This document shows positions 1 to 47,383 of a DNA stretch of 64,000 bases, in pieces. Under the pieces are notes generated by a model. It searched no databases. It had not been told where the DNA came from and saw only the letters and a program-made list of their open reading frames with translations. Location of the stretch: positions 1 to 64,000 of IMG/VR virus record IMGVR_UViG_3300036781_000236, one strand, 5' to 3'. Position 1 is the stretch's first letter, and each line of letters begins with the position of its first letter. This DNA comes from a virus. Position numbers and translations under genes: made by a program.

Positions 1-24
1 GGGGGGGGGGCCCCCCCCCCCCCC
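1..24. other. Homopolymer run G10C14
   Basis: Ten G followed by fourteen C, ending immediately before the stop codon of the dnaB-like gene. Nothing else in the window resembles it. It may be an assembly or library artefact, a linker, or the physical end of a linear molecule; the sequence alone cannot decide. Confidence 0.6.
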
Positions 25-1389
25 TCAAGGATCGTACCGCCGCGAAGCCGCGTTCGGCTCCCGCGCAAGGTCACCGAACGTAGTGTACCTGTCCACGAAC
101 GCGACGTTCACGGTCCCGGTGGGGCCGTTGCGGTGCTTCAACACGATCAGTTCCGCGGTGCCCTCCGTTCCCATCTCGGCAGCGTCCTCGGGATTATAAT
201 AGGAGTCACGGTAAAGAGCTATTACAACGTCAGAATCCTGCTCAACACTGCCACTCTCTCGGAGATCAGAAAGCATCGGCCTTTTGTCGTGTCTTTCCTC
301 GACTTTCCGTGATAGTTGCGAAACAGCAACGATTGGTATATTTAGTTCGCCCGCGAGTATCTTCAATGAGCGCGTTATCTGCGATATCTCCTGGGTGCGG
401 TTCTCCGTGCGCCCCGATGAGGAGATGAGTTGCAGGTAGTCCACCACGATCAGCGCCAATGGGTGACGTGCGGCCAACCGGCGTGCTTTGCCGCGGATGT
501 CGGTGATCGTGAGCAGGCTCGTGTCGTCCACGAACAGCGGTGCCGATTGGAGGTCGTTCGCTACACGACCCATCCGGGTCCAGTCGTCCCCTGTCAGTTC
601 GCCGTGCCGCATCTCCTGCGAGTCCACCCGGCCTTCCATGCTCAGGAGGCGCTGCTGGATCTCGTCGCGTCCCATCTCCAACGTGAAGAACGCGGCGGGC
701 TTCGCGAGCCGCAGCGCTACGTGGGCGCACAGGCCGAGCGCGTAAGCGGACTTGCCCATCGCGGGCCTAGCAGCGACGACGACCAGGTTCCCTGGGTGCA
801 ACCCGGCGAGCAAGCGATCTACGTCACGGATGCCTGTCGGCAACCCTGCGGCGCGTCCTTCCGCGGCGACGGCTTCGAGGCGCGCCCACGTGTCCCCCAG
901 GCCGTCCTTCACCGGCAGCAGGCCGCTCGCTTCACGGTCAGTGTCGGCGAGCGCGAACACCATCTGCTCGGCGTGGTCGACCAGTTCGTGCTCTGGCTGG
1001 TCGGCGTTCCATCCAAGCGCCGCGATCTGCCCCCCTGCGGTGACGAGTCCGCGGCGGATAGCGGCGCGGCGTATCACGCCCGCGTGATGACCCGCGGCAC
1101 CCGCGGCAGGAACCAGAGTCGCGATCTCGTGGATGCGTTCCCGTCCGCCGACTCCTTCGAGGGTGCCGTCACGGTCGAGGCGGTCCGCCAACGTGATCGC
1201 GTCCACCGCGACGCCCTCTGCGTGCAACACCAGGATGGTGTCCCACACTGTCTGGTGGGAGTGCCTGTAGAAGTCGCCAGGACGAAGCACGTCGGCGGCG
1301 GCTTCGATAGCCCGCGGCGACAGCATCGCGGCACCCAATACGTACTCCTCGGCGTCTAGTGCTTGAGGCGGGACGCGACTGTCAGCCAT
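25..1389 (-). CDS. dnaB: Replicative DNA helicase, DnaB family
   Basis: Hexameric 5'-3' helicase that unwinds DNA at the replication fork. The 454-aa product has the usual DnaB length and order: an N-terminal helical domain (about residues 1-150), then a RecA-like ATPase with Walker A (ARPAMGKSAYALG), the TLEM segment, Walker B (LIVVDYLQL), the SQLSR segment and the C-terminal DLRESGSVEQDSD block. The ATG at 1389 follows a weak ribosome site. It is the last gene of a leftward replication cluster with the HTH protein and the methyltransferase upstream. One copy of the dispersed 14-bp palindrome lies inside the coding sequence at 1074-1087. A phage-encoded DnaB suggests the phage recruits its own fork helicase. 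Confidence 0.95.
   Translation of the reverse strand: MADSRVPPQALDAEEYVLGAAMLSPRAIEAAADVLRPGDFYRHSHQTVWDTILVLHAEGVAVDAITLADRLDRDGTLEGVGGRERIHEIATLVPAAGAAGHHAGVIRRAAIRRGLVTAGGQIAALGWNADQPEHELVDHAEQMVFALADTDREASGLLPVKDGLGDTWARLEAVAAEGRAAGLPTGIRDVDRLLAGLHPGNLVVVAARPAMGKSAYALGLCAHVALRLAKPAAFFTLEMGRDEIQQRLLSMEGRVDSQEMRHGELTGDDWTRMGRVANDLQSAPLFVDDTSLLTITDIRGKARRLAARHPLALIVVDYLQLISSSGRTENRTQEISQITRSLKILAGELNIPIVAVSQLSRKVEERHDKRPMLSDLRESGSVEQDSDVVIALYRDSYYNPEDAAEMGTEGTAELIVLKHRNGPTGTVNVAFVDRYTTFGDLAREPNAASRRYDP
1074..1087. repeat. 14-bp palindrome copy (TCACGCCCGCGTGA)
   Basis: Exact copy of the dispersed palindrome, here inside dnaB where it encodes part of HHAGVIR. Whether it is bound by anything is unknown; it could be a chance match to codons favoured here. 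Confidence 0.5.
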
Positions 1390-8136: not shown

Positions 8137-8158
8137 CTGCTACCTCCGTGTTCGTGGT

Positions 8159-8202
8159 GATCGTGACTCCCCAAGACTACATACCCTGCTATACGAAGTC
8201 AA
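8159..8202 (-). promoter_or_regulatory. Strong leftward promoter with conserved spacer and start
   Basis: -35 TTGACT (8197-8202), 17-bp spacer containing TTCGTATAGCAGG, -10 TAGTCT (8174-8179), then TGGGGA and GTCACGATC (8159-8167). The same spacer and start sequence occur in the rightward promoters at 33689 and 42189. A palindrome copy lies just upstream at 8215-8228. Confidence 0.85.
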
Positions 8203-33688: not shown

Positions 33689-33735
33689 TTGACTTCGTAT
33701 AGCAGGGTCGGTACGCTTTCCGGCGTCACGATCCA
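33689..33735 (+). promoter_or_regulatory. Strong rightward promoter with conserved spacer and start
   Basis: TTGACT (33689-33694), 17-bp spacer holding TTCGTATAGCAGG, TACGCT (33712-33717). The predicted first transcribed bases are GTCACGATCCA (33725-33735); their complement recurs at 34516-34526. Confidence 0.85.
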
Positions 33736-33757
33736 ACCAATCTAGGAGGGTGAGCAA

Positions 33758-33907
33758 ATGAAGTCCACCACTACCGAGGATCTTTGCCGGGAGCGCACAT
33801 CGCTTCGGATGCAGCGCGACGCTTTCAGCGCAGGCCACGAGCCGGCTTCTGTCATGAACCGCCTGCGAGAGATCGAACGGGAGCTTGCTCGTCGCCGAAC
33901 TGCGTAG
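33758..33907 (+). CDS. Hypothetical protein, 49 aa
   Basis: Strong AGGAGGGTGAGC ribosome site. Basic helical protein (MNRLREIERELARRR). First gene of the rightward operon. Confidence 0.65.
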   Translation: MKSTTTEDLCRERTSLRMQRDAFSAGHEPASVMNRLREIERELARRRTA

Positions 33908-33977
33908 CTTTGCGGATCGTCGCCTACTGGGCGGCGGTTCGGAGCGCTACCGCTCCCGAAGCAGGAGGGTGAGATAC

Positions 33978-34148
33978 ATGAAAGACGCAGTGAAGGAAAT
34001 GACCGTGCCGACGAAAGCGCACAATCTGTGCTTGCTGCCGGTGTTCGAGAACGGCATCAAGGTCGCAAACTGCACCCATCCTCGCGGTACAGAGCATTTC
34101 CACGAGGTTTGGACGAAGAACACCGAGCCCGCTAAGGAGGCGTCGTGA
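33978..34148 (+). CDS. Hypothetical protein, 56 aa
   Basis: AGGAGGGTGAG before ATG. Cys/His residues (CTHPRGTEHFHE) may bind metal. GTGA overlap with the next gene. Confidence 0.65.
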   Translation: MKDAVKEMTVPTKAHNLCLLPVFENGIKVANCTHPRGTEHFHEVWTKNTEPAKEAS

Positions 34149-34267
34149 GCCACGGGGCGTTGGTGTTCGTCGCCTGGGCCATGACCCACGGCATGAGGTG
34201 CTGGAGCGAAGTTCACTTGTACGGTGGGCCGTTGGTGGGGACGTGGCGGGAATGGCTGTGCAAATGA
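34145..34267 (+). CDS. Hypothetical protein, 40 aa
   Basis: GTG start coupled to both neighbours. Short and rather hydrophobic (GALVFVAWAMTHG). Confidence 0.5.
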   Translation: MSHGALVFVAWAMTHGMRCWSEVHLYGGPLVGTWREWLCK

Positions 34268-34443
34268 GCGCGGACAAGCTCTCAGGATGGGTCGCTGTCG
34301 GCGGCACTCACCCGCTTCGTGGCTTGACGCTATACGGGCCATTCAATACAGCCGACGAAGCGTCGGAATGGGCTAATGAGGAGCTGGGCCAGGTCGGGGA
34401 TTGGTGGATCGAGGAGCTTTGGGCGGCGGAGGAGAAGTCATGA
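34264..34443 (+). CDS. Hypothetical protein, 59 aa
   Basis: ATGA overlap upstream. TLYGPFNTADEASEWANEE followed by an acidic end; this pattern is common in small phage proteins of unknown role. Confidence 0.6.
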   Translation: MSADKLSGWVAVGGTHPLRGLTLYGPFNTADEASEWANEELGQVGDWWIEELWAAEEKS

Positions 34444-34508
34444 CTTCGGAGCCGAAGCTGGACGCTGCCGTTGAGGCTCACCGTGCGGTAGAGACGCTAA
34501 GGACTTAG
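34440..34508 (+). CDS. Hypothetical peptide, 22 aa
   Basis: ATGA overlap with the previous gene; helical (LDAAVEAHRAVETLR). Last coding unit of the operon. Confidence 0.4.
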   Translation: MTSEPKLDAAVEAHRAVETLRT

Positions 34509-34515
34509 CGGCGGG

Positions 34516-34526
34516 TGGATCGTGAC
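34516..34526 (+). repeat. 3' complement of the operon's 5' end
   Basis: TGGATCGTGAC, the exact reverse complement of GTCACGATCCA at 33725-33735, 30 bp before the terminator. The two mRNA ends could pair over 11 bases. Confidence 0.7.
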
Positions 34527-34556
34527 TGAACCCTCCCTGGTACGCCGCTAACGAAC

Positions 34557-34578
34557 GAGGCCCCCGCAAGGGGGCCTC
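34557..34578. terminator. Bidirectional terminator
   Basis: GAGGCCCCC-GCAA-GGGGGCCTC, 9-bp stem and GCAA loop, between convergent genes. Confidence 0.8.
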
Positions 34579-34581
34579 TGT

Positions 34582-35289
34582 TCATCCAGGCCCGAGCGTC
34601 CAATCCACATACAGGGCGCAGTCATCCATGGGGAAGCACACGGCGACACGGCCTGGGTCCACACCCAATCGGTGCTTCTTCCCGAGCAGCGACTGCACCA
34701 GGTCGGGATGCTGCACGAGGGACGGGACCGACCCGAGCGGTGTCTCGCCGTGGTCGCGGAGGAACCTGCCGATGATCTCATCATCGGCGACGAACGACTC
34801 GGGCCACAGCTGTTCGTCCACATAACGGAGCAGGGGGTGGATGAGCCGCACGGGCCAGCACGTAGCTACGGCGCTACACCAACGTGCGGTGGTGAGTTCC
34901 GCCCACGACACCCCTCGGGCGCACGCGCGCTCCATCGCCTGCTTATGCTCGTACGGGTTCCCGCTCACGTGGAACACGAGGACCCTGTCCGGCCTCGCCA
35001 CTATCGCAGCGACCAGGGCTTCCGTGAAGCCCTGACATAGCTCACCGTCGTCCTGCACGACCATGCGGTGCGTCGGTGCGCCTGCGTTCGTGAATCCGCA
35101 CCCGAACCCTGGTGTCGCCTCAAGCACGGCACGGTAGGTGCGCCACGGCGACCGGCGCGGATGATCGGGGGTCGGGTCGAACACCACGTCCGCGCCTGTA
35201 GCGGCGGCGAGTGCAGCGGCCATGTCAGCGCGTGCGGGCGACGCTTGTATCCCGATGCTAACCCTCAACCCAACGTTTAGGTCTATCAC
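34582..35289 (-). CDS. Glycosyltransferase-like protein (GT25-type pattern)
   Basis: Up to 235 aa. N-terminus LRVSIGIQASPARADMA, central RMVVQDDGELC (acidic metal site), then GSVPSLVQHPDL. The GTG at 35289 lies inside the palindrome; a TTG at 35268 (before RVSIGIQ) is an alternative start. Confidence 0.65.
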   Translation of the reverse strand: MIDLNVGLRVSIGIQASPARADMAAALAAATGADVVFDPTPDHPRRSPWRTYRAVLEATPGFGCGFTNAGAPTHRMVVQDDGELCQGFTEALVAAIVARPDRVLVFHVSGNPYEHKQAMERACARGVSWAELTTARWCSAVATCWPVRLIHPLLRYVDEQLWPESFVADDEIIGRFLRDHGETPLGSVPSLVQHPDLVQSLLGKKHRLGVDPGRVAVCFPMDDCALYVDWTLGPG

Positions 35290-35316
35290 GCGCGCGTGAC
35301 GGGCCTGCTATAGCAA
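35286..35316 (+). promoter_or_regulatory. Composite palindrome + TATAGCA element
   Basis: TCACGCGCGCGTGA (35286-35299), 4 bp, CCTGCTATAGCAA (35304-35316). It overlaps both the end of the structural gene and the start of the GT gene. Confidence 0.5.
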
Positions 35317-36999
35317 GCCGAGCGCGATGAGTTCCGCGATCTCCGCCAGGTCACGGTCGTCCAACGGCTGCTCGCCGAGTCTGCGTGCCACCCACCCTGC
35401 GGGGAAGCCGCTCCCGCCGACACCAGCCGCCACAGTAGGGATCGGCGCTGGGATCGCGGTGAGGAGTGCTGCCAACGCGCCTTCCCCACCGAGCAGCGCA
35501 ACCAGACGCTGGTACTCCGTCACCGTGACACTCAACGCACCCGCACCGGCGAGCGAGGCGACAAACCGCTGATACGGGGTGATCGTTGCGTTCAACGCCC
35601 CCGTGCCCATTAGGGACGCAGCGAACCGCTGGTACAAGGTCATCGACGCGGCGAGCGACCCAGCACCTACCATCGCGGCCGTGAACCGCTTATACGGCGT
35701 CACCGCAGCCGACAGAGCACCCACGCCTGCCAGTTGCGGAGCGAGCCGCTGATATGGCGTTACTGTCGCAGACAAAGCACCCGCGCCTGCGAGGGATACG
35801 AGTATTTGAACGAGCGGGTTGTAGTCCACCGATGCCCACACGTTCGTGACACCAACCGCTTGAAGGTTGATCACGGACTGCAAATAGCCGATCTGCATTG
35901 ATGTGAGCGTCGCGGCTGTCCACGCGCCACCGTCCGGGTCCAGGTACGTGACCAACGGGTAGTACGACGCCCCTGGCTGTGTCGGGTTCGTCGTCCACGT
36001 CACCGTGTTCGGAGCCAACGACGCCGACATAGCCTTCGTGCCACCACTTGTCTTCTCGATCTGCACCTTCACCGCCGCCGTCGCATCCGCACCAACAAGG
36101 TCAGCGATCCTGCCGCCAACGCACAGCGTGTTGATCGTGTCGAGTGACCCGACCCCAGACGCCCCGACCGCGAACAGGTCGCTCGCGTTCAAAACCGCAG
36201 ACGCGTTATACGAGGTCGCGTCGTCCGGCGGCACCTCATTCACCCTAGTCCAGTTATTCGCTGACCCAGCCGTACCTCCCACTTGCACAGGGAACGTGTT
36301 GCTATCACCTGGCGCTGCGGGATGAAGATGGATGATCTTTCCCGGCCCGCACCACGAGTTCTGCACTGACCCTGTAGCGTCATTCACGGCAAGATCGTCT
36401 GCGTACATCACTCCCTGAGTTACTGTAGAGTTAGGCAATCCAACCTGAAATCTCGCCGTAGAACCAGCAACATTGTTAACACCAGACCCAATCACGATTC
36501 CAGCCGTACCTGGATCGTTACCTGACGTTCCACAATCTGTATATCTCGCCTCATATGTACACGGAGAAACAGTGGCATCTACCTTGAACTCAATACGATA
36601 CCAATGTCCTACCTGAACAATACCGTTAGCGGTATTACCAATGATAGTTCCACCTGTCTGCTGCAAGAAAAGAGCGCCGTTTCCGTTAGTTGCAATGCTT
36701 CCCTGTGCTCCACCTCCTATCGCAGCCCATTGTGCAAATATCTTACGGTTTCCTCCCTCTGAAATAAGAGTGTCGAACAATACATATGCTCTAGAGTAGA
36801 AAACCGCGGATTGGTTCGTCTTAGCAAACGCCCAGTTGATTGTCTGAGCAGCACCAGAAGGCGCGAACTTCCAAGACGCCAGTCCTGACCGAACTTTTGC
36901 GGCTGTCGTAGAGATCGTTACACCAGCAGAAACGGTGTCTGCTTCAACACCTGCGGTGGCGCTCTGAAGTTCTGCTCCGCTTTGCAGGAGACGGGCCAT
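35308..36999 (-). CDS. Virion surface protein with lectin-like domain and repeats
   Basis: 563 aa. Residues about 40-230 have the strand pattern of a concanavalin/LamG-like domain (GHWYRIEFKVDA; VMYADDLAVND). The C-terminal part holds five or six 20-aa repeats (AGALSATVTPYQR type). Lower GC in the first third. Probably a capsid or tail decoration protein that binds sugars. Its place among head genes is unusual for a tail fibre. Confidence 0.65.
   Translation of the reverse strand: MARLLQSGAELQSATAGVEADTVSAGVTISTTAAKVRSGLASWKFAPSGAAQTINWAFAKTNQSAVFYSRAYVLFDTLISEGGNRKIFAQWAAIGGGAQGSIATNGNGALFLQQTGGTIIGNTANGIVQVGHWYRIEFKVDATVSPCTYEARYTDCGTSGNDPGTAGIVIGSGVNNVAGSTARFQVGLPNSTVTQGVMYADDLAVNDATGSVQNSWCGPGKIIHLHPAAPGDSNTFPVQVGGTAGSANNWTRVNEVPPDDATSYNASAVLNASDLFAVGASGVGSLDTINTLCVGGRIADLVGADATAAVKVQIEKTSGGTKAMSASLAPNTVTWTTNPTQPGASYYPLVTYLDPDGGAWTAATLTSMQIGYLQSVINLQAVGVTNVWASVDYNPLVQILVSLAGAGALSATVTPYQRLAPQLAGVGALSAAVTPYKRFTAAMVGAGSLAASMTLYQRFAASLMGTGALNATITPYQRFVASLAGAGALSVTVTEYQRLVALLGGEGALAALLTAIPAPIPTVAAGVGGSGFPAGWVARRLGEQPLDDRDLAEIAELIALGLL
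35460..35825 (-). repeat. Tandem 20-aa (60-bp) protein repeats
   Basis: Units end PYQR, PYKR, LYQR, PYQR and EYQR and contain GAGALSATVT-like cores. The DNA copies have diverged at third positions, so the protein pattern is selected. Confidence 0.8.
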
Positions 37000-37012
37000 C
37001 GCCCCTCCTACT

Positions 37013-37552
37013 CTACGTCTCGGTGATCGACTCAGCCCCAGACACAATCTGGGGAGTGTCACCGGGGTTGATCGCTGTGCTAGTGATAGAGCACCAGTAC
37101 AGGATGTTTCCGCTCGATGCTGCGTCTAGGATCGCGAAGTAGGTGACGGTCTGCAACGACCCAGCGTTCGTGCCGAACGTGATCGCGACGCTGTTTGTCG
37201 TCGCCGACCCCGCGGTCGAGGTGCTGTAGTTCGACGTGTTCGCGGTGACCGCTACACGGGCGTACCCTGTGTAGGAAGCCTCACCGCTCGAAGCGCCCGT
37301 AGACGACGCCGACAGCGCCGATGTCCACAACGCCTGGTAGAGCGTCGCGGGTGGCGTGTATGTGGTGGCGTTGAAGATCGCGTTCAGCAGCTTGCTGACC
37401 AAATATTGGCTCTTGCCCGTCACCCACCGCACGAGGTCGCGGAGACCTGTAGAGGTCGGCTTGAACACCACCGCGCCGCCCGTCACGCGGGCGTGATAGA
37501 CCCGGCCGTCGCGGCCGTGCCACACCAACCCGTCCAGCGATACAGCGGTCAC
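37013..37552 (-). CDS. Virion structural protein, 179 aa
   Basis: Residues about 65-179 (TLYQALWTSALSA, EASYTGYARVAV, TYFAILDAASSGNIL) match a widespread phage beta-domain found in tail-fibre or decoration proteins. GTGA overlap upstream. A palindrome copy lies in the coding sequence (VYHARV). Confidence 0.65.
   Translation of the reverse strand: MTAVSLDGLVWHGRDGRVYHARVTGGAVVFKPTSTGLRDLVRWVTGKSQYLVSKLLNAIFNATTYTPPATLYQALWTSALSASSTGASSGEASYTGYARVAVTANTSNYSTSTAGSATTNSVAITFGTNAGSLQTVTYFAILDAASSGNILYWCSITSTAINPGDTPQIVSGAESITET
37483..37496. repeat. 14-bp palindrome copy (TCACGCGGGCGTGA)
   Basis: Exact copy near the 5' end of the 37013-37552 gene. Confidence 0.5.
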
Positions 37553-37827
37553 TGTGTGCTCCTGATGTCGTCCAGCACCTTCTGCACGGCGGTCATCTCG
37601 TCGGGGGTGACGCTAACCATCGGAGAGCCGTCAGCAGGCACCAGGAGTGCGTACCGTTCATGCTTCCGGTCAGACCACGACTCGTCACCATCGGTAGAGA
37701 CGCGATAGGTGCCGTCGTCGTTCAAGTACAGCCGTTCCCCAAGCGCGTCATAACCCGTGGCAGGGTCGGTGACGACCGAGTAGTGCCACCCGTCCTGGTA
37801 ACACACCGGACCCGTGTAGACGGTCAC
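37549..37827 (-). CDS. Hypothetical protein, 92 aa
   Basis: Beta-rich (ERLYLNDDGTYRVSTDGDE), GTGA overlaps on both sides. Coupled to the AAA+ gene. Confidence 0.65.
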   Translation of the reverse strand: MTVYTGPVCYQDGWHYSVVTDPATGYDALGERLYLNDDGTYRVSTDGDESWSDRKHERYALLVPADGSPMVSVTPDEMTAVQKVLDDIRSTQ

Positions 37828-39929
37828 GTGGCGTCCTCGGTGACGTAGGACTTCGCGCCGGTTTCAGCGTCGTACTCCACCCGGACACGACGCGCAGACG
37901 CAGCAACAGGCTCAGGGGTCGTGACATGCACATCGACCTGGGCGGCTGGGACATGAACGTCGATTTTCTGCTCAGGCACGTTCACGATGATAGGCGAAGG
38001 CTCCGCCGCCGCCTGCTCCGGCACATGCACCGTGACGTTCGCGACAGGAGCGGGCTGCACAGGCATGTGAACGTCGAAGCGTGGCTCCACCTTCGACCCC
38101 TCCACCGTCACCGCCAAATCGTGCTGTGGGACGTGAACGTGGATGTCGCCAAGTTGGGGCGCTGCGGGTGCAGGACGCGAGGCGAACTCGCGAAGCACCC
38201 CGAGCGCCGTCAATGCCAATGCGTCCCCGGTGCCGTGCGTGCGCTCCGTATGCGCAGACGCGACGAGGGACGCGATCCCTTCCGTGGTTGCCTTGTGAGA
38301 CGCCGCGAGTGCTTCGATACCGGCGCGCAACGCAGGTGACTCCGCTACGTGCGGCAGCGACGCGACGAGCGCCGACACGTCTGGGGAATCAGAGAGAAGG
38401 TTCTGTGTGTCCCCTTCGAGTTCGAGCGGCTGCGTGGCGAGTTCCAGAAGCGTCGCGAACTCAACCTCAGCGGCCGTCTCGTCGGCCTGCTGCTTCTCCT
38501 CCGCTTCCTCCGCGATCCACCGCTCCACATTCGGGAGCGTGAACACGCCTTCGTCGCCTCCTTCCACCCGCGCGGCCACATCGGAGTGGATAGGCTCCGC
38601 GAGTTCAAGGTGCCAGTACTGCAACGCTTGGTCGACGGGATCGAATCCTGTCTCCTGCCCTTCGAGGACACGGTCTTCCTCGTGCTCTGCCCAGTAGGCG
38701 TTCAAGGCTTCCTGGGCGTCCACGGCGATCTCTTCGATCATCACGCCAGCGTGAACATCATGGGCGGCCGCGACCATAGCTTCGTCGTCTGTGGTGATTG
38801 CTTCCGCACCATTGTTCTTGCGTGCGTACAACTCCGCGAGGGTCGCGCCTTCCACGGCGTCCTCACCAGCCCATGCTGCTACTTCGTCGGCGGTCATCGG
38901 CAGGAACTCGATCTGCGACGCGCACCGTCCCGGCCGGGTGACGGCAGGATGCAGCGTCCCGAGTTCGTCGTTCGTCGTGACCAGCGCGAGTACCCGGAGG
39001 CCCTGCCCGATCATGCCGTCCACTACGTTCAGGAGCCGCGACAGTCCCTGCCCGTACTTCTCCTTCGCGGTAGCGGACAGCAGCTCCCCCGTGTCTTCCA
39101 GGATGAGGACACGCCACTTCCCGAGCGGGTTGCTTTCCGCGTACACGTCGCCGCTGACGGGTTCGAGCATGTCGTAGCTGTCCGCGAGCAGCACGTTGAT
39201 CATGTAGGAGGGGTCGTCCACGAAGAACGAGTCGGGGTCGGTGATGTAGTGGAACTCGGCCCACGGTGCCCACTGCGACGCAAGCGCCCGGAGCGCCCAC
39301 GACTTCCCTGTGCCGGGCTGTCCCTGCCAAAGCAGCAGCTGGCCGTCAACCGTCTCGGGTGCGTCCCACGCCATGAGCGACCCGAGCGAGTCACGGACAT
39401 GGGAGGTGTAGTTCTGCTCGATGTCGCCCCACTGTGCGGACTCCACACGACGGAGGCGCGGGATAGGGCCGTGCTTGCTGTTCGCCCAGAACGTGATCGG
39501 GACGGTCGCGTTGTCCTGCGTCAGATACGACGCGGGATACGCCTGCCTGAATGCAGCGCATGCGGTGTCTACCTGCGTCTGACTGTCTCCTGCGACGCGC
39601 ACATTGAACCAACCGTCCCCGATGCTGATAAGCGCGAGCGCACCGCTGTTTGTCGCTACAACCGCCGATCCCCTGTCTACGAACAGCACGTTCTTGGACG
39701 GAAGCCCTGCGCTACTAGCTTCGATAGGCCACGAGTCGCCGCCCCAAACCGGCGACTCCCTCTGCAACGCGTGCTCCTTGAAGAACTTCTCCGCTGCTCC
39801 GCCGTACAACATGTCGTACGTCGGGAGCATCGCTGGGGCCGCAGCCGTGAGGCTACGGAACGCGGCACGGCGACGCTGCGAAAGCGTGCGCGGCTGCCGC
39901 TGCCCGACCTTCACACTGGCGCGACCCAC
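37824..39929 (-). CDS. AAA+ ATPase within the head gene cluster
   Basis: 701 aa. N-terminal domain (about 1-170) resembles that of Streptomyces DUF5925-type ATPases. AAA+ module: Walker A GQPGTGKS near residue 204, Walker B RVLILED near 270, sensor 1 LVTTNDE near 315, arginine finger VTRPGR near 328. The C-terminus has five or more VHVP/VNVP strands (GDIHVHVPQHDLAV; IIVNVPEQKIDVHVP). GTG start 3 nt after the protease gene. May remodel capsid or portal proteins or host targets; head modules rarely carry such a gene. Confidence 0.85.
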   Translation of the reverse strand: MGRASVKVGQRQPRTLSQRRRAAFRSLTAAAPAMLPTYDMLYGGAAEKFFKEHALQRESPVWGGDSWPIEASSAGLPSKNVLFVDRGSAVVATNSGALALISIGDGWFNVRVAGDSQTQVDTACAAFRQAYPASYLTQDNATVPITFWANSKHGPIPRLRRVESAQWGDIEQNYTSHVRDSLGSLMAWDAPETVDGQLLLWQGQPGTGKSWALRALASQWAPWAEFHYITDPDSFFVDDPSYMINVLLADSYDMLEPVSGDVYAESNPLGKWRVLILEDTGELLSATAKEKYGQGLSRLLNVVDGMIGQGLRVLALVTTNDELGTLHPAVTRPGRCASQIEFLPMTADEVAAWAGEDAVEGATLAELYARKNNGAEAITTDDEAMVAAAHDVHAGVMIEEIAVDAQEALNAYWAEHEEDRVLEGQETGFDPVDQALQYWHLELAEPIHSDVAARVEGGDEGVFTLPNVERWIAEEAEEKQQADETAAEVEFATLLELATQPLELEGDTQNLLSDSPDVSALVASLPHVAESPALRAGIEALAASHKATTEGIASLVASAHTERTHGTGDALALTALGVLREFASRPAPAAPQLGDIHVHVPQHDLAVTVEGSKVEPRFDVHMPVQPAPVANVTVHVPEQAAAEPSPIIVNVPEQKIDVHVPAAQVDVHVTTPEPVAASARRVRVEYDAETGAKSYVTEDAT
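38741..38754. repeat. Degenerate palindrome copy
   Basis: TCACGCCAGCGTGA inside the AAA+ gene; one arm base pair intact pattern with CA centre. Confidence 0.4.
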
Positions 39930-39932
39930 CGT

Positions 39933-42104
39933 CTACGCCTCGATGGAATCAGCGAGTTCCGCGATCTCGGCCATCGCGGCCTGGCACTCCGCACCGCACA
40001 CGATCCCGGCGGCCGTCAAAGACATCACCTCGGGTGCTTCACCCGACGCGACCACGGATGCGCGGGTGCGGGGGATCGGGAACCCAGGCACGTTGACGGC
40101 GAGCGCGGCGACGAGTTCGAGGTTGCCGTTCACGTTCCGCCAGTCCCCCGACAGTTTCGCTGCCCGCAACACACGGATCGTTTCCTCCGACGTGCCGGGA
40201 CGAACAGCCCCCGCGACCCAGATGCCGTGCTCGTCCTCACCGCACGCCACATCCGCCACCACAGTGCCTGTGTGGTCGTAATGGGCGGCCGCGGCGGCCT
40301 GACCCAACCCCGATGACGCATGGCCGGTGCCGAGGGTGATGTTCCCGACTGGGACACGCTCCCCGTCCGCACAGGCGATCTCACCGAGCATGTAGTAGGC
40401 GTAATCGGTCTTCGACCGTGGCGCGTACACGTGGTTGTCTGGGAACGCGATGTGCGGGACGTTCCACTCAGCAGCATGGCCGTACACCTGCCCGTCGTCG
40501 GTGACGGTGAGCGGCTGCGGCCCGTCGAACTCGGGGTTCGCGAACCACTCCACGGGCGGGCGAACGGGGATCTCGGTCTCGACCGCGGAAGCGACCAGAG
40601 CCGCAGCGTTCCGTACCGGGGTGACGCGGTAGCCGCCCTGCGACGTGACTGTCCACATCGCTTCGAGCTGCGTCGAAGCGACCAGCGACGACGCAAGCTG
40701 GATCGTGGCTTCAGCGAACGCCTGGAACGGGCACGCGGTCGCCATACCGATAGTGGCGTCAGCGACGACGATGATCGTGTCGTCGCCCTTCTCCCCAAAC
40801 GCGATGTCGATGAGGGAGGGTGCGTCGGTTTCGTCGTCGGGCTTCGGTGCCCACACGCCTTCCGCGTCGAACCAGTCGCTTTTCGGCCCCACATCGTACT
40901 GATGCACCGCCAAGTCCACGCTGATGCCGCGCAACGTGCCATCTCCGACCATGCGGGCGATCATCTGCCCGAACTCGCCGTCATCGAACACACCCGACGC
41001 CTGGATCAGATTCCCTTCGCGCCAGATGTTGTCGATCCGTCCCGCGACCTGAGCGCCATCGTGGCCGCCCTCCGCAGACGTTTCGACCAGGCCCATGAGG
41101 GTGAGCGGCAGGTCACGCCACGAGATGCTGTCAGGAGCGAACGCACGGTTGTCCGCCGTCATCGCGGCCTCCGGTGCAAGGGTGGCGGTCCACTGCATCT
41201 GCGCAGATGCCTTATCCGAACCTGTCGGCACCTTCGTGATGTCAGGCAAGCGCGGCGACGGGTTCCGCTTCGGGATACGACTCGACGGCTTATGCGCGTC
41301 GATCAGCGGAATACCGTCGTCGCCCGCGAACGTGAGAGCGAATCGTGCGAGGGTGTCACGCAACGGTGTGTCCTGACCGTCACGGACAGTGACGTACTCC
41401 GCGATCTCCGCGATCAGGCCGTCCACCGCAGCGGCAGCGAGGTCTTCGCCGTCCATGTCCGTCGTCTCGAATCCGTCGCAGTCACAACCGAGGGCGGAGC
41501 ATGCACCCATGTTGCCGTCGCCGCCATGCATGCCGTCAGGGTGGCCGCAGTCACCGTCAGCGCACACCGCCGTGTTCGCGACGGCTGCCAACTCCTCTGT
41601 GTCGGCCTCGGCATTCGCGTTGTCGTCCTTCCACGGCACGGTGATGGTGTCGTCCTCGTACTTCTTCGCGGCTGCCTTGTAGTAGCCCTCCACTGCCGTC
41701 TTGATCTTGGCCTTGTCGGCGTCCGGGATGTCAGCGCCGCCACGGGCACCCGAAAGCACACCCGCGACCGCGGTGACAGCCTTCCAGACGGCGTGCTTGC
41801 CGCCGTCCTTCGACACGAACGGGAACTTGTACGACGACTTGACCGCAGGGTCACCGTCGGAGTCCTTCCACATGAAGCAGTCCGCGTCGGCGGGAAGTTC
41901 GTAGTCCTTCGTGGCCGCGGGGCCGTCCCACGCCTCGTCGCGCGCGCCGAGCGGAAGACCGTCCGCTCCGCTCGCGTCAGCGGTGATCGCCGCGAGTTCC
42001 GCGACCTGCTCCTCAGTGAACGCAGGGATGCGCTTCTCGGCCGCCACACGTGCGGCGGCCCTACGTGCCCTACGACGAGCCTGTGCGGCTCCAGATCCAG
42101 CCAT
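39933..42104 (-). CDS. Prohead protease-type protein
   Basis: 723 aa (ATG 42104 after AAAGGGGAA). Residues about 55-160 contain the block CFMWKDSDGDPAVKSSYKF with ADKAKIKTAVEGYYK, common at the N-terminus of phage maturation proteins. The middle (GRIDNIWREGNLIQASGVF; GTLRGISVDLA) has the HK97-type protease pattern. A Cys-rich insert (CADGDCGHPDG; CSALGCDCDG) may bind zinc. C-terminal half may be a second structural domain. Confidence 0.65.
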   Translation of the reverse strand: MAGSGAAQARRRARRAAARVAAEKRIPAFTEEQVAELAAITADASGADGLPLGARDEAWDGPAATKDYELPADADCFMWKDSDGDPAVKSSYKFPFVSKDGGKHAVWKAVTAVAGVLSGARGGADIPDADKAKIKTAVEGYYKAAAKKYEDDTITVPWKDDNANAEADTEELAAVANTAVCADGDCGHPDGMHGGDGNMGACSALGCDCDGFETTDMDGEDLAAAAVDGLIAEIAEYVTVRDGQDTPLRDTLARFALTFAGDDGIPLIDAHKPSSRIPKRNPSPRLPDITKVPTGSDKASAQMQWTATLAPEAAMTADNRAFAPDSISWRDLPLTLMGLVETSAEGGHDGAQVAGRIDNIWREGNLIQASGVFDDGEFGQMIARMVGDGTLRGISVDLAVHQYDVGPKSDWFDAEGVWAPKPDDETDAPSLIDIAFGEKGDDTIIVVADATIGMATACPFQAFAEATIQLASSLVASTQLEAMWTVTSQGGYRVTPVRNAAALVASAVETEIPVRPPVEWFANPEFDGPQPLTVTDDGQVYGHAAEWNVPHIAFPDNHVYAPRSKTDYAYYMLGEIACADGERVPVGNITLGTGHASSGLGQAAAAAHYDHTGTVVADVACGEDEHGIWVAGAVRPGTSEETIRVLRAAKLSGDWRNVNGNLELVAALAVNVPGFPIPRTRASVVASGEAPEVMSLTAAGIVCGAECQAAMAEIAELADSIEA

Positions 42105-42149
42105 GACCGATTCCCCTTTTCCAGATGGACGGTGAAAGTTCCGTGGGCC

Positions 42150-42165
42150 GTAGGCTAGCGCGGCG
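42150..42165 (-). promoter_or_regulatory. Shared 16-bp motif, possible late promoter
   Basis: CGCCGCGCTAGCCTAC on the minus strand, identical to 47604-47619. Both lie 38-46 bp upstream of a structural gene start; TAGCCT may be the -10 box. Confidence 0.55.
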
Positions 42166-42188
42166 GGGTGGTAGCTCCACACCCACCC

Positions 42189-42234
42189 TTGACTTCGTAT
42201 AGCAGGCTAGGTATGGTTGGGGAGTCACGATCCA
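42189..42234 (+). promoter_or_regulatory. Strong rightward promoter with conserved spacer and start
   Basis: TTGACT (42189-42194), 17-bp spacer with TTCGTATAGCAGG, TATGGT (42212-42217), TGGGGA, then GTCACGATCCA (42224-42234). Same design as 33689 and 8202. Confidence 0.87.
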
Positions 42235-42249
42235 CCAAGGAGGCACACC

Positions 42250-42648
42250 ATGAGCAAAGAAACACTTCTGCTTCAGGAGTACGGGTTCGGCGGTAAGCGC
42301 GTTCCCGATCTCACCATCGAGGTTGAGTACCGCAAAGCGCCGTACTACGACCACGACACCACCTACGCGCCCGACCATCGCGGCAAGACGCTGACGGCGT
42401 ACGACGTGTATGTGGACGGAACCCTCACAGGACGTATCCGTCAGACCATCGCGTCAACGGACAGGAACTACAACACGATCCGTGTTCCTGGACGCGGCAA
42501 AATCGCGTGGTCGTGGGATCGCAAGCACACAGCAGGACCGAACCGACAGGATCGCACCAGCAACTACCCTGGCCTCTACAGAACTTCCAAGCGCTCCGCG
42601 GTTGGCGACATGATGGGATACGGATGCGCCACGAAGGTTGCATCGTGA
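42250..42648 (+). CDS. Hypothetical protein, 132 aa
   Basis: AAGGAGGCAC before ATG. Polar, Tyr/Arg-rich (EVEYRKAPYYDHDTTYAP). First gene of the second rightward operon, so probably expressed early and strongly. Confidence 0.7.
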   Translation: MSKETLLLQEYGFGGKRVPDLTIEVEYRKAPYYDHDTTYAPDHRGKTLTAYDVYVDGTLTGRIRQTIASTDRNYNTIRVPGRGKIAWSWDRKHTAGPNRQDRTSNYPGLYRTSKRSAVGDMMGYGCATKVAS

Positions 42649-42848
42649 GTGTCGTCGCGCGAGTCTACGACAGCGGCGGCATCACGGAGCACACCGACAC
42701 CGTGCAGATCGCCACGCTCGTAGCGTCACTCAACCTCGCAGGCTTCGAGATGAAGCCTCACGGATCAGTTAGGGATCGCGTGCAGATGCGTAACGAAGCA
42801 GCCGGTGTCGACATCACCCTGTCCCTTCTCAAGAACGAGGATGCATGA
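42645..42848 (+). CDS. Hypothetical protein, 67 aa
   Basis: GTGA overlap upstream, ATGA downstream. Alternating strands and helices (SVVARVYDSGGITEHTDTV). Confidence 0.65.
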   Translation: MSVVARVYDSGGITEHTDTVQIATLVASLNLAGFEMKPHGSVRDRVQMRNEAAGVDITLSLLKNEDA

Positions 42849-43306
42849 GCTACGACTTCTCCGCACGTATCGACACGGGCGGCCCGTACCCGCACTACAT
42901 CGAACCGTCCTTTGATGACACCCACCCTGGTCTAGCTACCAACGGGGTCGAGGGTTCCACCGTGGCCTTCTACCCGGAGGGAGGTTACACCCGCATCGGG
43001 AACTACACCTCGAATGTCTCCCCGATCTGGGCGCGCTGCCTCACGAAAGCCGCGCTCAGCATCCGGTACCCGAAGCACCTCCCAGACGGGGATATGTGGC
43101 TGTCCGACATCGACGGCGAACGCCTCGGTGACATCACGACGCTTCTCCACGCCGCCGTCGAGTACGGCATCGACCACCTCGAAGATCTGCGCGAACTGGA
43201 ACCCGAGAACAGGTGGGGAAACGCGGAAGGCGCGATCACCTACCTGTGGGACATCCAGCGGTTCAGCGAGATGCACCCCAACGCGTTCCTGAGTCTGAAT
43301 CGCTAA
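42845..43306 (+). CDS. Hypothetical protein, 153 aa
   Basis: Starts MSYDFSARIDTGGPYP. Contains NYTSNVSPIWARCL, a pattern I know from uncharacterised phage proteins. Last gene of the operon. Confidence 0.7.
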   Translation: MSYDFSARIDTGGPYPHYIEPSFDDTHPGLATNGVEGSTVAFYPEGGYTRIGNYTSNVSPIWARCLTKAALSIRYPKHLPDGDMWLSDIDGERLGDITTLLHAAVEYGIDHLEDLRELEPENRWGNAEGAITYLWDIQRFSEMHPNAFLSLNR

Positions 43307-43326
43307 AAGCTTCTCGGCTGGTGCAG

Positions 43327-43336
43327 GGATCGTGAC
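43327..43336 (+). repeat. 3' complement of the operon's 5' end
   Basis: GGATCGTGAC, reverse complement of the first ten bases of GTCACGATCC at 42224, 35 bp before the terminator. Confidence 0.7.
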
Positions 43337-43371
43337 AGTTCTCCTGCCTCCAAGCCGCCGAGGATGAGCAG

Positions 43372-43391
43372 ACGGCCCCGCAAGGGGCCGT
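43372..43391 (+). terminator. Intrinsic terminator
   Basis: ACGGCCCC-GCAA-GGGGCCGT, same GCAA loop as at 34557, followed by TACGCTTTCT. Confidence 0.8.
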
Positions 43392-43399
43392 TACGCTTT

Positions 43400-45273: not shown

Positions 45274-45437
45274 TGCTTCCTCCGTGGCGGTGAACCATCG
45301 ATCTTGTCGAAAGCCCGCTCGGACGCCTTGCCTACCTCATCGACAGTGGTCTCTACCGCCTCGACAGCTTCCGCGACGATGGTCAACGGAGCCGTGATGA
45401 CTTCACCGACGATCCTCCCGAGAAGCTTCCCGATCAC
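45270..45437 (-). CDS. Small amphipathic protein, 55 aa
   Basis: GTGA overlap with the portal gene. Begins VIGKLLGRIVGEVITAPLTI, a membrane-associating helix, then an acidic coiled stretch. Role unknown. Confidence 0.6.
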   Translation of the reverse strand: MIGKLLGRIVGEVITAPLTIVAEAVEAVETTVDEVGKASERAFDKIDGSPPRRKQ

Positions 45438-47383
45438 GCCGTCACCTTCCCGTTCGCAGCGGCAGCAACCCTGTTCGTCAACGACGCCGACACCGGGGCC
45501 GGGAGCGTCTCGAACAAAGTTCGTGACGCGTGCAACTCGACGTTCGACACGAACAACTCCACCATCGCCGTGTCCGTGACGTGACATGACCGCAACGCTT
45601 CCTCGATCATCCCTCGCGCACCCGCGACCAGCTGCGCAGGCTGCTGCTTCGTCAACGTCTTCACGCGATCCGCACCCAGGGTAGCCGCGACAAGGTTCGC
45701 GCGTACCCCGTCGATCAACGCCAACGCGTCCGGGTCCTTCTTCGCGAGGGACCGGAGCTTCGACCCGGCGAGTTCGCGGGCACGATACACCGCCAGTTCC
45801 GCCGCGATAGACACGGCCGCCGTCGCGGCCGATCCGATCACCTCGCCGCTGATCGGCTGCGGCGGCTTTCCCTTCGTCGTCTCCGACGCCGACCCGCCAG
45901 GGCCACGCACCGGAGCGGACGTTACGCCACCCGATCCGCCATCCGCACCACCTGTGTCCGGGGTTTCGAGCACGCCAGGCGCGATCTCCAGTTCCGACCC
46001 TGGACGCAGTGACGGTGTCCCGTACACCGCCAAACCAGGGTCGCGGAGCTTGATCCCCAAGTACACGTTCCGTTCCTCAGGGGACGGCGCATCGGCGTCA
46101 TCGAACCCCTTCGACTTCCGGTACGTGTCATCGCTGATCGTGCCCCGGTCGAACGCCTCATCAGCAGCAGCGCCCCGGTCAGGGTGGTTGATGATCGCGG
46201 ACGCGTCGTAGTCGATGCAATAGGTCTGCCAATCAGCGACACCCATATCGCTAAGGTAGGGACGCAGGTAGGACTGCGTGAGGTCGGACACCAACTGTTG
46301 CGCCATCGGCTGCAAGTGCGCCTTCCACGTGCTCTCATCGACCTGCCATGCGTTCCAGTGCGTCAGGTCCCCCATCCCTGTCAGGATCTCCGCTGGAAGG
46401 TCGAGTCCGATAGCGATACGACGGATGCATTCCTCCCTCAATCCTGTCTCCGGATACAGCTGCACTGGGTCGACAAGCTCCATGTGGTACACAAGATCCT
46501 TGAGGGATTTATTTTCTGGGACAGGGACGCGCATGATCAGCGGAACAACAGCGGACGCTGACCCTTCGTTCTCGATGGAGGCAGTCATAGCGTCCGTCAG
46601 GTCCTGCAAGAAAATGTCGTTCAACGGGTCTTCGTCACCCAGCGGTTCTAGCGGGGTCTGTGACAGGGCGTCGTCTATCCACAGAATCCCGTTCCCTGCC
46701 TGCCGTGAACGGGCGCGCGCGCGGACGACGGCGGTGAGTAGCACGAGTTCTTCCACGAGCAGGAGGACACCGGCCATTGAGGAGTCCGCGAGTGCCGACC
46801 ACCTCGGCGACCGCTTCCACAGCCTGTACGCGACAGCGCTGTCGTCATCAACGGGGAAGAAATCCTCGTCCTTCACCTCGTGGTAGTTCTGGATCATGAT
46901 CGACGGTGCGCGGTACCGCATGATCACGCCGTCCATGACGCGCAACTCGTCGGTGGACAGAACCTCCCACTGCTCCAACCCGGTGAACGGGTCGTTGCTC
47001 ACGAGGAGGTACGCCTCCCCGGTGAGAAACATGAGTTTGCCGTACTGCTGCTGCAACCCGTTCCGCTGCCCCTTACCTCCGCCGGGGTCCTGGATACGGG
47101 CGAGCGCGTCAACGACGTTCTGATTCGTGGTGGGCTTGATCTCCCCGTCAGGTTGGATCTGCGCAGGTAGCAGCGTCAGTAGGCTCATGGCGTGCCCGAC
47201 GTAGTTCGCGGCGTACTTGATCTCCCCCACCATGTCGTAGTACGACAGGGCGCGGGTCTGCCACGGCTGGATCAGGCGGCGCATGATCTGCGCGTCCCGC
47301 TGATGCACCCGTACCCCGGCGGCCGTCAACGATGCGGGATTACCGATCCGCATCCCTGGCTTCTTGCGGCTAAACCACCCCAC
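45434..47383 (-). CDS. Portal protein
   Basis: 649 aa. N-terminal portal core (LSYYDMVGEIKYAANYVGHA, GEAYLLVSNDP, IRRIAIGLDLPAEILTG, HWNAWQVDESTW) typical of actinophage portals that form the dodecameric DNA gate. Residues beyond about 470 are a Gly/Thr-rich linker and a helical C-terminal domain. GTG at 47383; an internal ATG (MRIGNP) is an alternative. Followed by the MuF gene, as in most siphophages. Confidence 0.85.
   Translation of the reverse strand: MGWFSRKKPGMRIGNPASLTAAGVRVHQRDAQIMRRLIQPWQTRALSYYDMVGEIKYAANYVGHAMSLLTLLPAQIQPDGEIKPTTNQNVVDALARIQDPGGGKGQRNGLQQQYGKLMFLTGEAYLLVSNDPFTGLEQWEVLSTDELRVMDGVIMRYRAPSIMIQNYHEVKDEDFFPVDDDSAVAYRLWKRSPRWSALADSSMAGVLLLVEELVLLTAVVRARARSRQAGNGILWIDDALSQTPLEPLGDEDPLNDIFLQDLTDAMTASIENEGSASAVVPLIMRVPVPENKSLKDLVYHMELVDPVQLYPETGLREECIRRIAIGLDLPAEILTGMGDLTHWNAWQVDESTWKAHLQPMAQQLVSDLTQSYLRPYLSDMGVADWQTYCIDYDASAIINHPDRGAAADEAFDRGTISDDTYRKSKGFDDADAPSPEERNVYLGIKLRDPGLAVYGTPSLRPGSELEIAPGVLETPDTGGADGGSGGVTSAPVRGPGGSASETTKGKPPQPISGEVIGSAATAAVSIAAELAVYRARELAGSKLRSLAKKDPDALALIDGVRANLVAATLGADRVKTLTKQQPAQLVAGARGMIEEALRSCHVTDTAMVELFVSNVELHASRTLFETLPAPVSASLTNRVAAAANGKVTA

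Follow-up and report, generated by a model that had tools for sequence, protein, structure and literature searches.

Three small operons of an actinobacterial phage of uncultured kind carry, at the predicted mRNA start, a sequence with perfect 9-11 bp complementarity to their own 3'UTR, and in 3 of 3 a hairpin that immediately precedes the terminator holds the 3' copy. We give an about even chance to the reading that this 3' hairpin is an antisense element which acts on the 5' end, in cis and in trans, damping the operons that it brackets. The elements, their positions, the hairpins and a matched variant in the third operon can be read directly from the DNA.

The DNA analysed (the window) was the initial 64 kb of an 88-kb record. 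The record's final 126 bp are a second copy of window positions 25-150, which allows the genome to be closed into a circle; the 24-nt poly-G/poly-C run at the contig start (window 1-24) is an assembly artefact. The structural genes run leftward and include, by PHROGs matches, a portal (45434-47383) and a head protease (39933-42182). Two small rightward operons lie among them, at 33.7-34.6 kb (op1) and 42.2-43.4 kb (op2). One segment of the head-protease gene (40041-40155) was unusually conserved, its DNA being 84-95% identical to that of Gordonia phages, and the DNA flanking it had no similarity to these phages at that level.

The op1 promoter (33689-33717, + strand) has the -35 box TTGACT, the 12-bp sequence TCGTATAGCAGG in the spacer and the -10 box TACGCT. 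The 5' element GTCACGATCCA (33725-33735) lies at the predicted mRNA start and is followed by the Shine-Dalgarno region AGGAGGGTG (33744-33752) and by a body (33758-34508) of five small ORFs (33758-33907, 33978-34148, 34145-34267, 34252-34443 and 34440-34508), of which the two searched, those at 33978 and 34252, gave no family match. The 3' hairpin (34505-34551, outer stem TTAGCGGCG/CGCCGCTAA, z -1.84) contains the 3' element TGGATCGTGAC (34516-34526), the complement of the mRNA start, and the terminator is GAGGCCCCC-GCAA-GGGGGCCTC (34557-34578). The same parts were found in op2, also on the + strand: a promoter (42189-42217) with TTGACT, TCGTATAGCAGG in the spacer and TATGGT; the 5' element GTCACGATCC (42224-42233) at the predicted mRNA start; a body (42250-43306) with ORFs at 42250-42648, ~42627-42848 and 42845-43306, the last with a weak match to PHROG 8795, a family of unknown function; a 3' hairpin (43314-43362, z -2.07) with the outer stem CTCGGC/GCCGAG and the inner stem GCAGG/CCTGC, enclosing the 3' element GGATCGTGAC (43327-43336); and the terminator GACGGCCCC-GCAA-GGGGCCGTT (43371-43392). 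Both terminators are GC-rich, and their stems begin 30 (op1) and 34 nt (op2) past the 3' element. In both promoters TTGACT is followed by 17 nt, TANNNT and a further 6-7 nt to GTCACGATCC(A), a distance which puts the element at +1 or a few nt off. Starts and ends of transcription, here and in the third operon, are placed by prediction. The start and tail sequences given for these two operons in a preliminary description, at 33725, 34516, 42224 and 43327, were confirmed exactly.

A scan for a promoter with a 9-mer at its start and the complement of that 9-mer downstream, run on sequence that included the other 24 kb of the phage genome, recovered op1, op2 and a third operon of the same layout beyond the window (op3; genome 86,622-85,980, - strand, promoter at 86,622). 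Its transcript would start with GTCACGGTC and carry the 3' element GACCGTGAC (genome ~86,024-86,016, - strand) in its tail, before the terminator GACGTAGCGCCTC-GCAA-GGGGCGCTACGTC (- strand). Compared with op1 and op2, position 7 was changed on both sides, from A-U to G-C, so the ends of op3 still match each other perfectly. The op3 product is a single protein of 170 aa (L005 3044-3556, - strand), whose C-terminal part gave a weak, winged-helix-like match (TrmB/MarR) that stayed below cut-off.

A fourth promoter of the class, P4 (8174-8202, - strand; TTGACT ... TAGTCT), starts a leftward replication-gene operon and has the same leader, with the 5' element GTCACGATCA at 8158-8167 (- strand). This operon runs towards DnaB (25-1389) and across the closing point of the genome, and the first strong terminator that it meets is that of op3; neither a separate 3' partner for P4 nor a strong intrinsic terminator before that of op3 was found in it. 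The P4 leader had a 9-nt match to the op1 and op2 tails and a mismatch to the op3 tail at position 7. The presence of this leader without a 3' element of its own counts against the antisense reading. An ORF adjoining DnaB (L005 ~4835-4356, - strand) carries an HCSGGLNRS motif and resembled, by eye, a dual-specificity phosphatase. The first protein of op2, the op3 protein (query two residues short) and the first protein of P4 had no match in phage records.

Pairing of the two mRNA ends over 10-11 bases, as put forward in the preliminary description, was supported by the perfect complementarity in three operons, by one compensated change and by folding predictions. The window contains 7 copies of GTCACGATC, where 1.25 would be expected. 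In dinucleotide shuffles of the 100 nt before the terminator, the run complementary to the leader had p = 5e-5 in op1, 1.2e-3 in op2 and 0.017 in op3, the last for a 9-nt run with its TT/AA flanks uncounted. The complementarity extends past the invariant GTCACG by 5 bases in op1, 4 in op2 and 3 in op3. When starts and tails of the three operons were aligned, 29 of 30 cells over positions 1-10 were standard pairs, and the full 11-pair helix was 90.9% paired, against 13-42% when the partner was slid by 1-3 columns. Column shuffles reached 277/500, a control to which three related sequences give no power, so the op3 variant counts as one compensated change and not as statistical proof. Thermodynamic folding of whole transcripts paired the 5' end with the 3'UTR in all three operons (probability 0.72-0.98 per nucleotide over the core), values which are indicative only; a hairpin and a long-range pairing could not be represented together. 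The op1 and op2 tails fitted their own leaders and the sister leaders equally well. The element occupies ~+1 to +10 of the transcript, and the start codon is predicted at +27 to +34.

Only three GCAA-tetraloop terminators exist in the genome, and each is preceded by such a hairpin. The op3 hairpin shares the outer stem TTAGCGGCG/CGCCGCTAA with that of op1, and the z values of the three lie between -1.8 and -2.5. In the predicted folds the GGA of the element pairs with a UCC further on and CGUGAC is left in or near the loop, so the invariant GUCACG/CGUGAC would be best placed to initiate pairing. Each hairpin also has a CCUCC or CUCC run to which the Shine-Dalgarno region of its own leader is complementary: in op1, for example, GGAGGGT is complementary to ACCCTCC of the hairpin. 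These runs were of 7, 7 and 8 nt in op1, op2 and op3 (p 0.028, 0.077 and 0.013, individually weak), and their C's can also be explained by the inner stem of the hairpin. At the 5' side the copies (four, including P4) were similar from the promoter as far as the Shine-Dalgarno sequence, and at the 3' side the three copies were similar over hairpin and terminator. The operon bodies showed no significant DNA similarity to each other, and their translated comparison gave short weak matches only. An Rfam 15 scan of the window detected only tRNAs, with no family above the gathering score at the op1 and op2 3' hairpins, and no promoter was seen by eye just upstream of the hairpins.

According to the antisense reading, the 5' bracket would be a regulated promoter giving a transcript that begins GUCACGRUC, and the 3' bracket a hairpin just before the GCAA-loop terminator with GAYCGUGAC in or beside the loop. 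The loop, with its invariant CGUGAC, would nucleate on the 5'-terminal GUCACG of its own or of a sister mRNA, pairing would lengthen to 9-11 bp, after which the adjacent CCUCC run could reach the Shine-Dalgarno sequence. Lower translation and/or quicker decay would follow, amounting to a delayed negative feedback on the operon set, exerted either in cis, within the full-length mRNA, or in trans by a 3'UTR fragment. From the base sequence we infer that the RNAs would pair in the cell, that the Shine-Dalgarno sequence would be occluded and that the effect would be negative. A wider form of the same idea is a phage-wide RNA feedback circuit with three emitter operons and four receiving leaders, a tentative and rather doubtful proposal. 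In such a circuit the op3 hairpin, with its G-C "dialect", would prefer its own transcript, the op1 and op2 hairpins would reach all four leaders (with a G-U wobble at op3), and strand displacement by the 5' end would open the hairpin and free the anti-Shine-Dalgarno run.

The main rival, opposite in the sign of its effect, is a protective panhandle, in which the 3' loop would hold its own 5' end, block 5'-end-dependent decay (RNase E/J, pyrophosphohydrolase) and so stabilise complete transcripts; we consider it unlikely. The first 9-11 nt, which such nucleases need free, are exactly those covered by the element, which ends just upstream of the reach of a ribosome at the start codon, so translation need not suffer; cis pairing was also favoured in the folding of whole transcripts. 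Against this, the 3' loop also holds the run complementary to the Shine-Dalgarno sequence, the op1 and op2 tails match the sister leaders equally, so pairing is not confined to cis, and ribosomes translating the 0.6-1.1 kb in between would at least partly open a closure of 9-11 bp. Both the run in the loop and the match to sister leaders make the antisense reading fit at least as well. Of the panhandle put forward in the preliminary description, the end pairing was thus retained and the simple closed form was not, and its further suggestions of antitermination or of termination coupled to the start found no support.

A second rival assigns the element to DNA: a phage or host regulator would read GTCACG at the start and, inverted, before the terminator, as an operator, a roadblock or a looping pair, and the RNA complementarity would be a by-product. 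Protein-bound repeats seem common in this genome, given that a second repeat, the 12-bp TCGTATAGCAGG, recurs in the same promoters, and the palindrome TCACGCSSGCGTGA has 20 exact copies in the genome (31 within 2 mismatches) against ~0.004 exact copies expected; the half-site of the palindrome, [AG]TCACGC, has GTCACG in common with the element. Position 7 of the half-site, however, is C in all exact copies and A or G in all copies of the element, the complementarity exceeds the half-site by 3-5 bases that are matched within each operon, and 3 of 3 3' copies are in RNA hairpins right before terminators, a setting unnecessary for a DNA site. For these reasons the DNA rival was ranked below the RNA reading, and we regard it as improbable.

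Both repeats merit description in their own right. The palindrome TCACGCSSGCGTGA (14-16 bp) was present, for example, at window 25684, 32472 and 56898 and at genome 68262 and 85517; several copies lie 3-9 bp upstream of a CCTGCTATACGA box, and two copies were also found in the nearest relative, L006. It is likely a DNA site for a regulator. The 12-bp TCGTATAGCAGG was located at window 8185, 25702, 33695, 42195, 53410 and 62076 and at genome 68211, 79622 and 86602. It was found forward between the -35 and -10 boxes in all four GTCACG promoters, and reversed (CCTGCTATACGA) over the -10 box of several leaderless leftward promoters and beside a tRNA gene, an operator-like arrangement. As an asymmetric 12-bp site of the operon promoters that is repeated through the genome, it recalls the operators and stoperators of Cluster A mycobacteriophages (PMC6550527). 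Here the repeated promoter site is TCGTATAGCAGG, a DNA element separate from the GTCACGATC pair, and GTCACGATC itself was rejected as a stoperator-type repeated repressor site.

Judged by head protease, the nearest contig (L006, 64% identity) had a different cassette on the opposite strand in the slot of op2, and L007 had little room there, so such slots turn over. The cassette of L006 showed no head-tail complementarity; beside it lay irregular, non-coding-looking repeats rich in GGCTAGG/GGCACGG (L006 ~1800-2260). This turnover, and the similar brackets around unrelated bodies, would suit brackets that were recently copied around unrelated genes, or recombinase or invertase inverted repeats, without an RNA function, an explanation that is very improbable because the repeats are flanked by the promoter on the 5' side and by the terminator on the 3' side and are therefore not the ends of an element in the manner of a mobile element's inverted terminal repeats, no inverted sequences were found and no recombinase site class was recognised, and copying alone leaves the leader-tail complementarity and the matched variant of op3 unexplained.

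Neither the viral contigs nor the phage records nor the sampled genomes yielded a relative that carries the design. Searches with the promoter pattern, with the 3' element plus CCCTCC and with the palindrome plus a -10 box each gave 0 matches, and the search with promoter plus leader gave no relative with the design. The 3' element plus a GCAA terminator gave 29 matches, all of them apparent coding coincidences with no matching promoter and leader upstream; pairs of GTCACGATC in G003 and G004 were likewise only apparent, being coding coincidences. Two patterns run on 395 genomes of the class of Gordonia liuliyuniae gave one match, judged to be due to chance. The scan of head-protease relatives covered L006 to L085, and no such cassette was found among these; L095-L104 are remote relatives only. 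Blastn of the 3' module and of the leader against phages returned only short terminator-stem or unrelated matches.

Phage antisense RNAs that are cut from the transcript they regulate include the C4 RNA of P1/P7 and the CI RNA of satellite P4. These RNAs use short complementary segments near the ribosome-binding site or leader, and they set immunity. They differ from the element described here in lying upstream of or in the leader, whereas it lies at the 3' end and is repeated across operons.

A closer likeness is found in the icaR mRNA of Staphylococcus aureus, in which a short 3'UTR motif beside the terminator pairs, in cis or in trans, with the 5'UTR of that mRNA, as proven by compensatory mutation (PMC3868564). 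That pairing blocks the Shine-Dalgarno sequence and with it translation, and recruits RNase III, for which it creates a site (PMC3868564). Complementary motifs in the 5'UTR and 3'UTR of one mRNA were also present in the phage operons; icaR is a single chromosomal gene whose UCCCCUG pairs on the Shine-Dalgarno sequence itself, whereas the phage has three operons, a motif in a hairpin loop and a main pairing predicted at the extreme 5' end. OppZ and CarZ of Vibrio cholerae are autoregulatory sRNAs derived from 3'UTRs, released by RNase E and dependent on Hfq; they repress translation of their own operon, a feedback that requires full transcription, and the target of OppZ is an internal gene start (oppB) of its operon (PMC7398697). 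The predicted phage elements resemble them as terminator-ended RNA at the 3' end of an operon that is complementary to the operon's own mRNA, and a seed of this kind was present, as were a hairpin and the terminator that follows it. Within the openly licensed literature, no account of phage operons with complementary mRNA ends was found. The earlier statement that no phage system of this design has been described may hold for phages, with the qualification that bacterial pairing between 5'UTR and 3'UTR has already been described for icaR (PMC3868564) and OppZ/CarZ (PMC7398697).

If the antisense reading is true, head-to-tail control of mRNA, so far a matter of single bacterial genes, would also include phage operons that form a coordinated set, and a leader together with a 3' hairpin and terminator would form compact, portable brackets that render the genes they enclose self-limiting. 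This would bear on how dsDNA phages shut down small operons lying against the direction of their structural genes.
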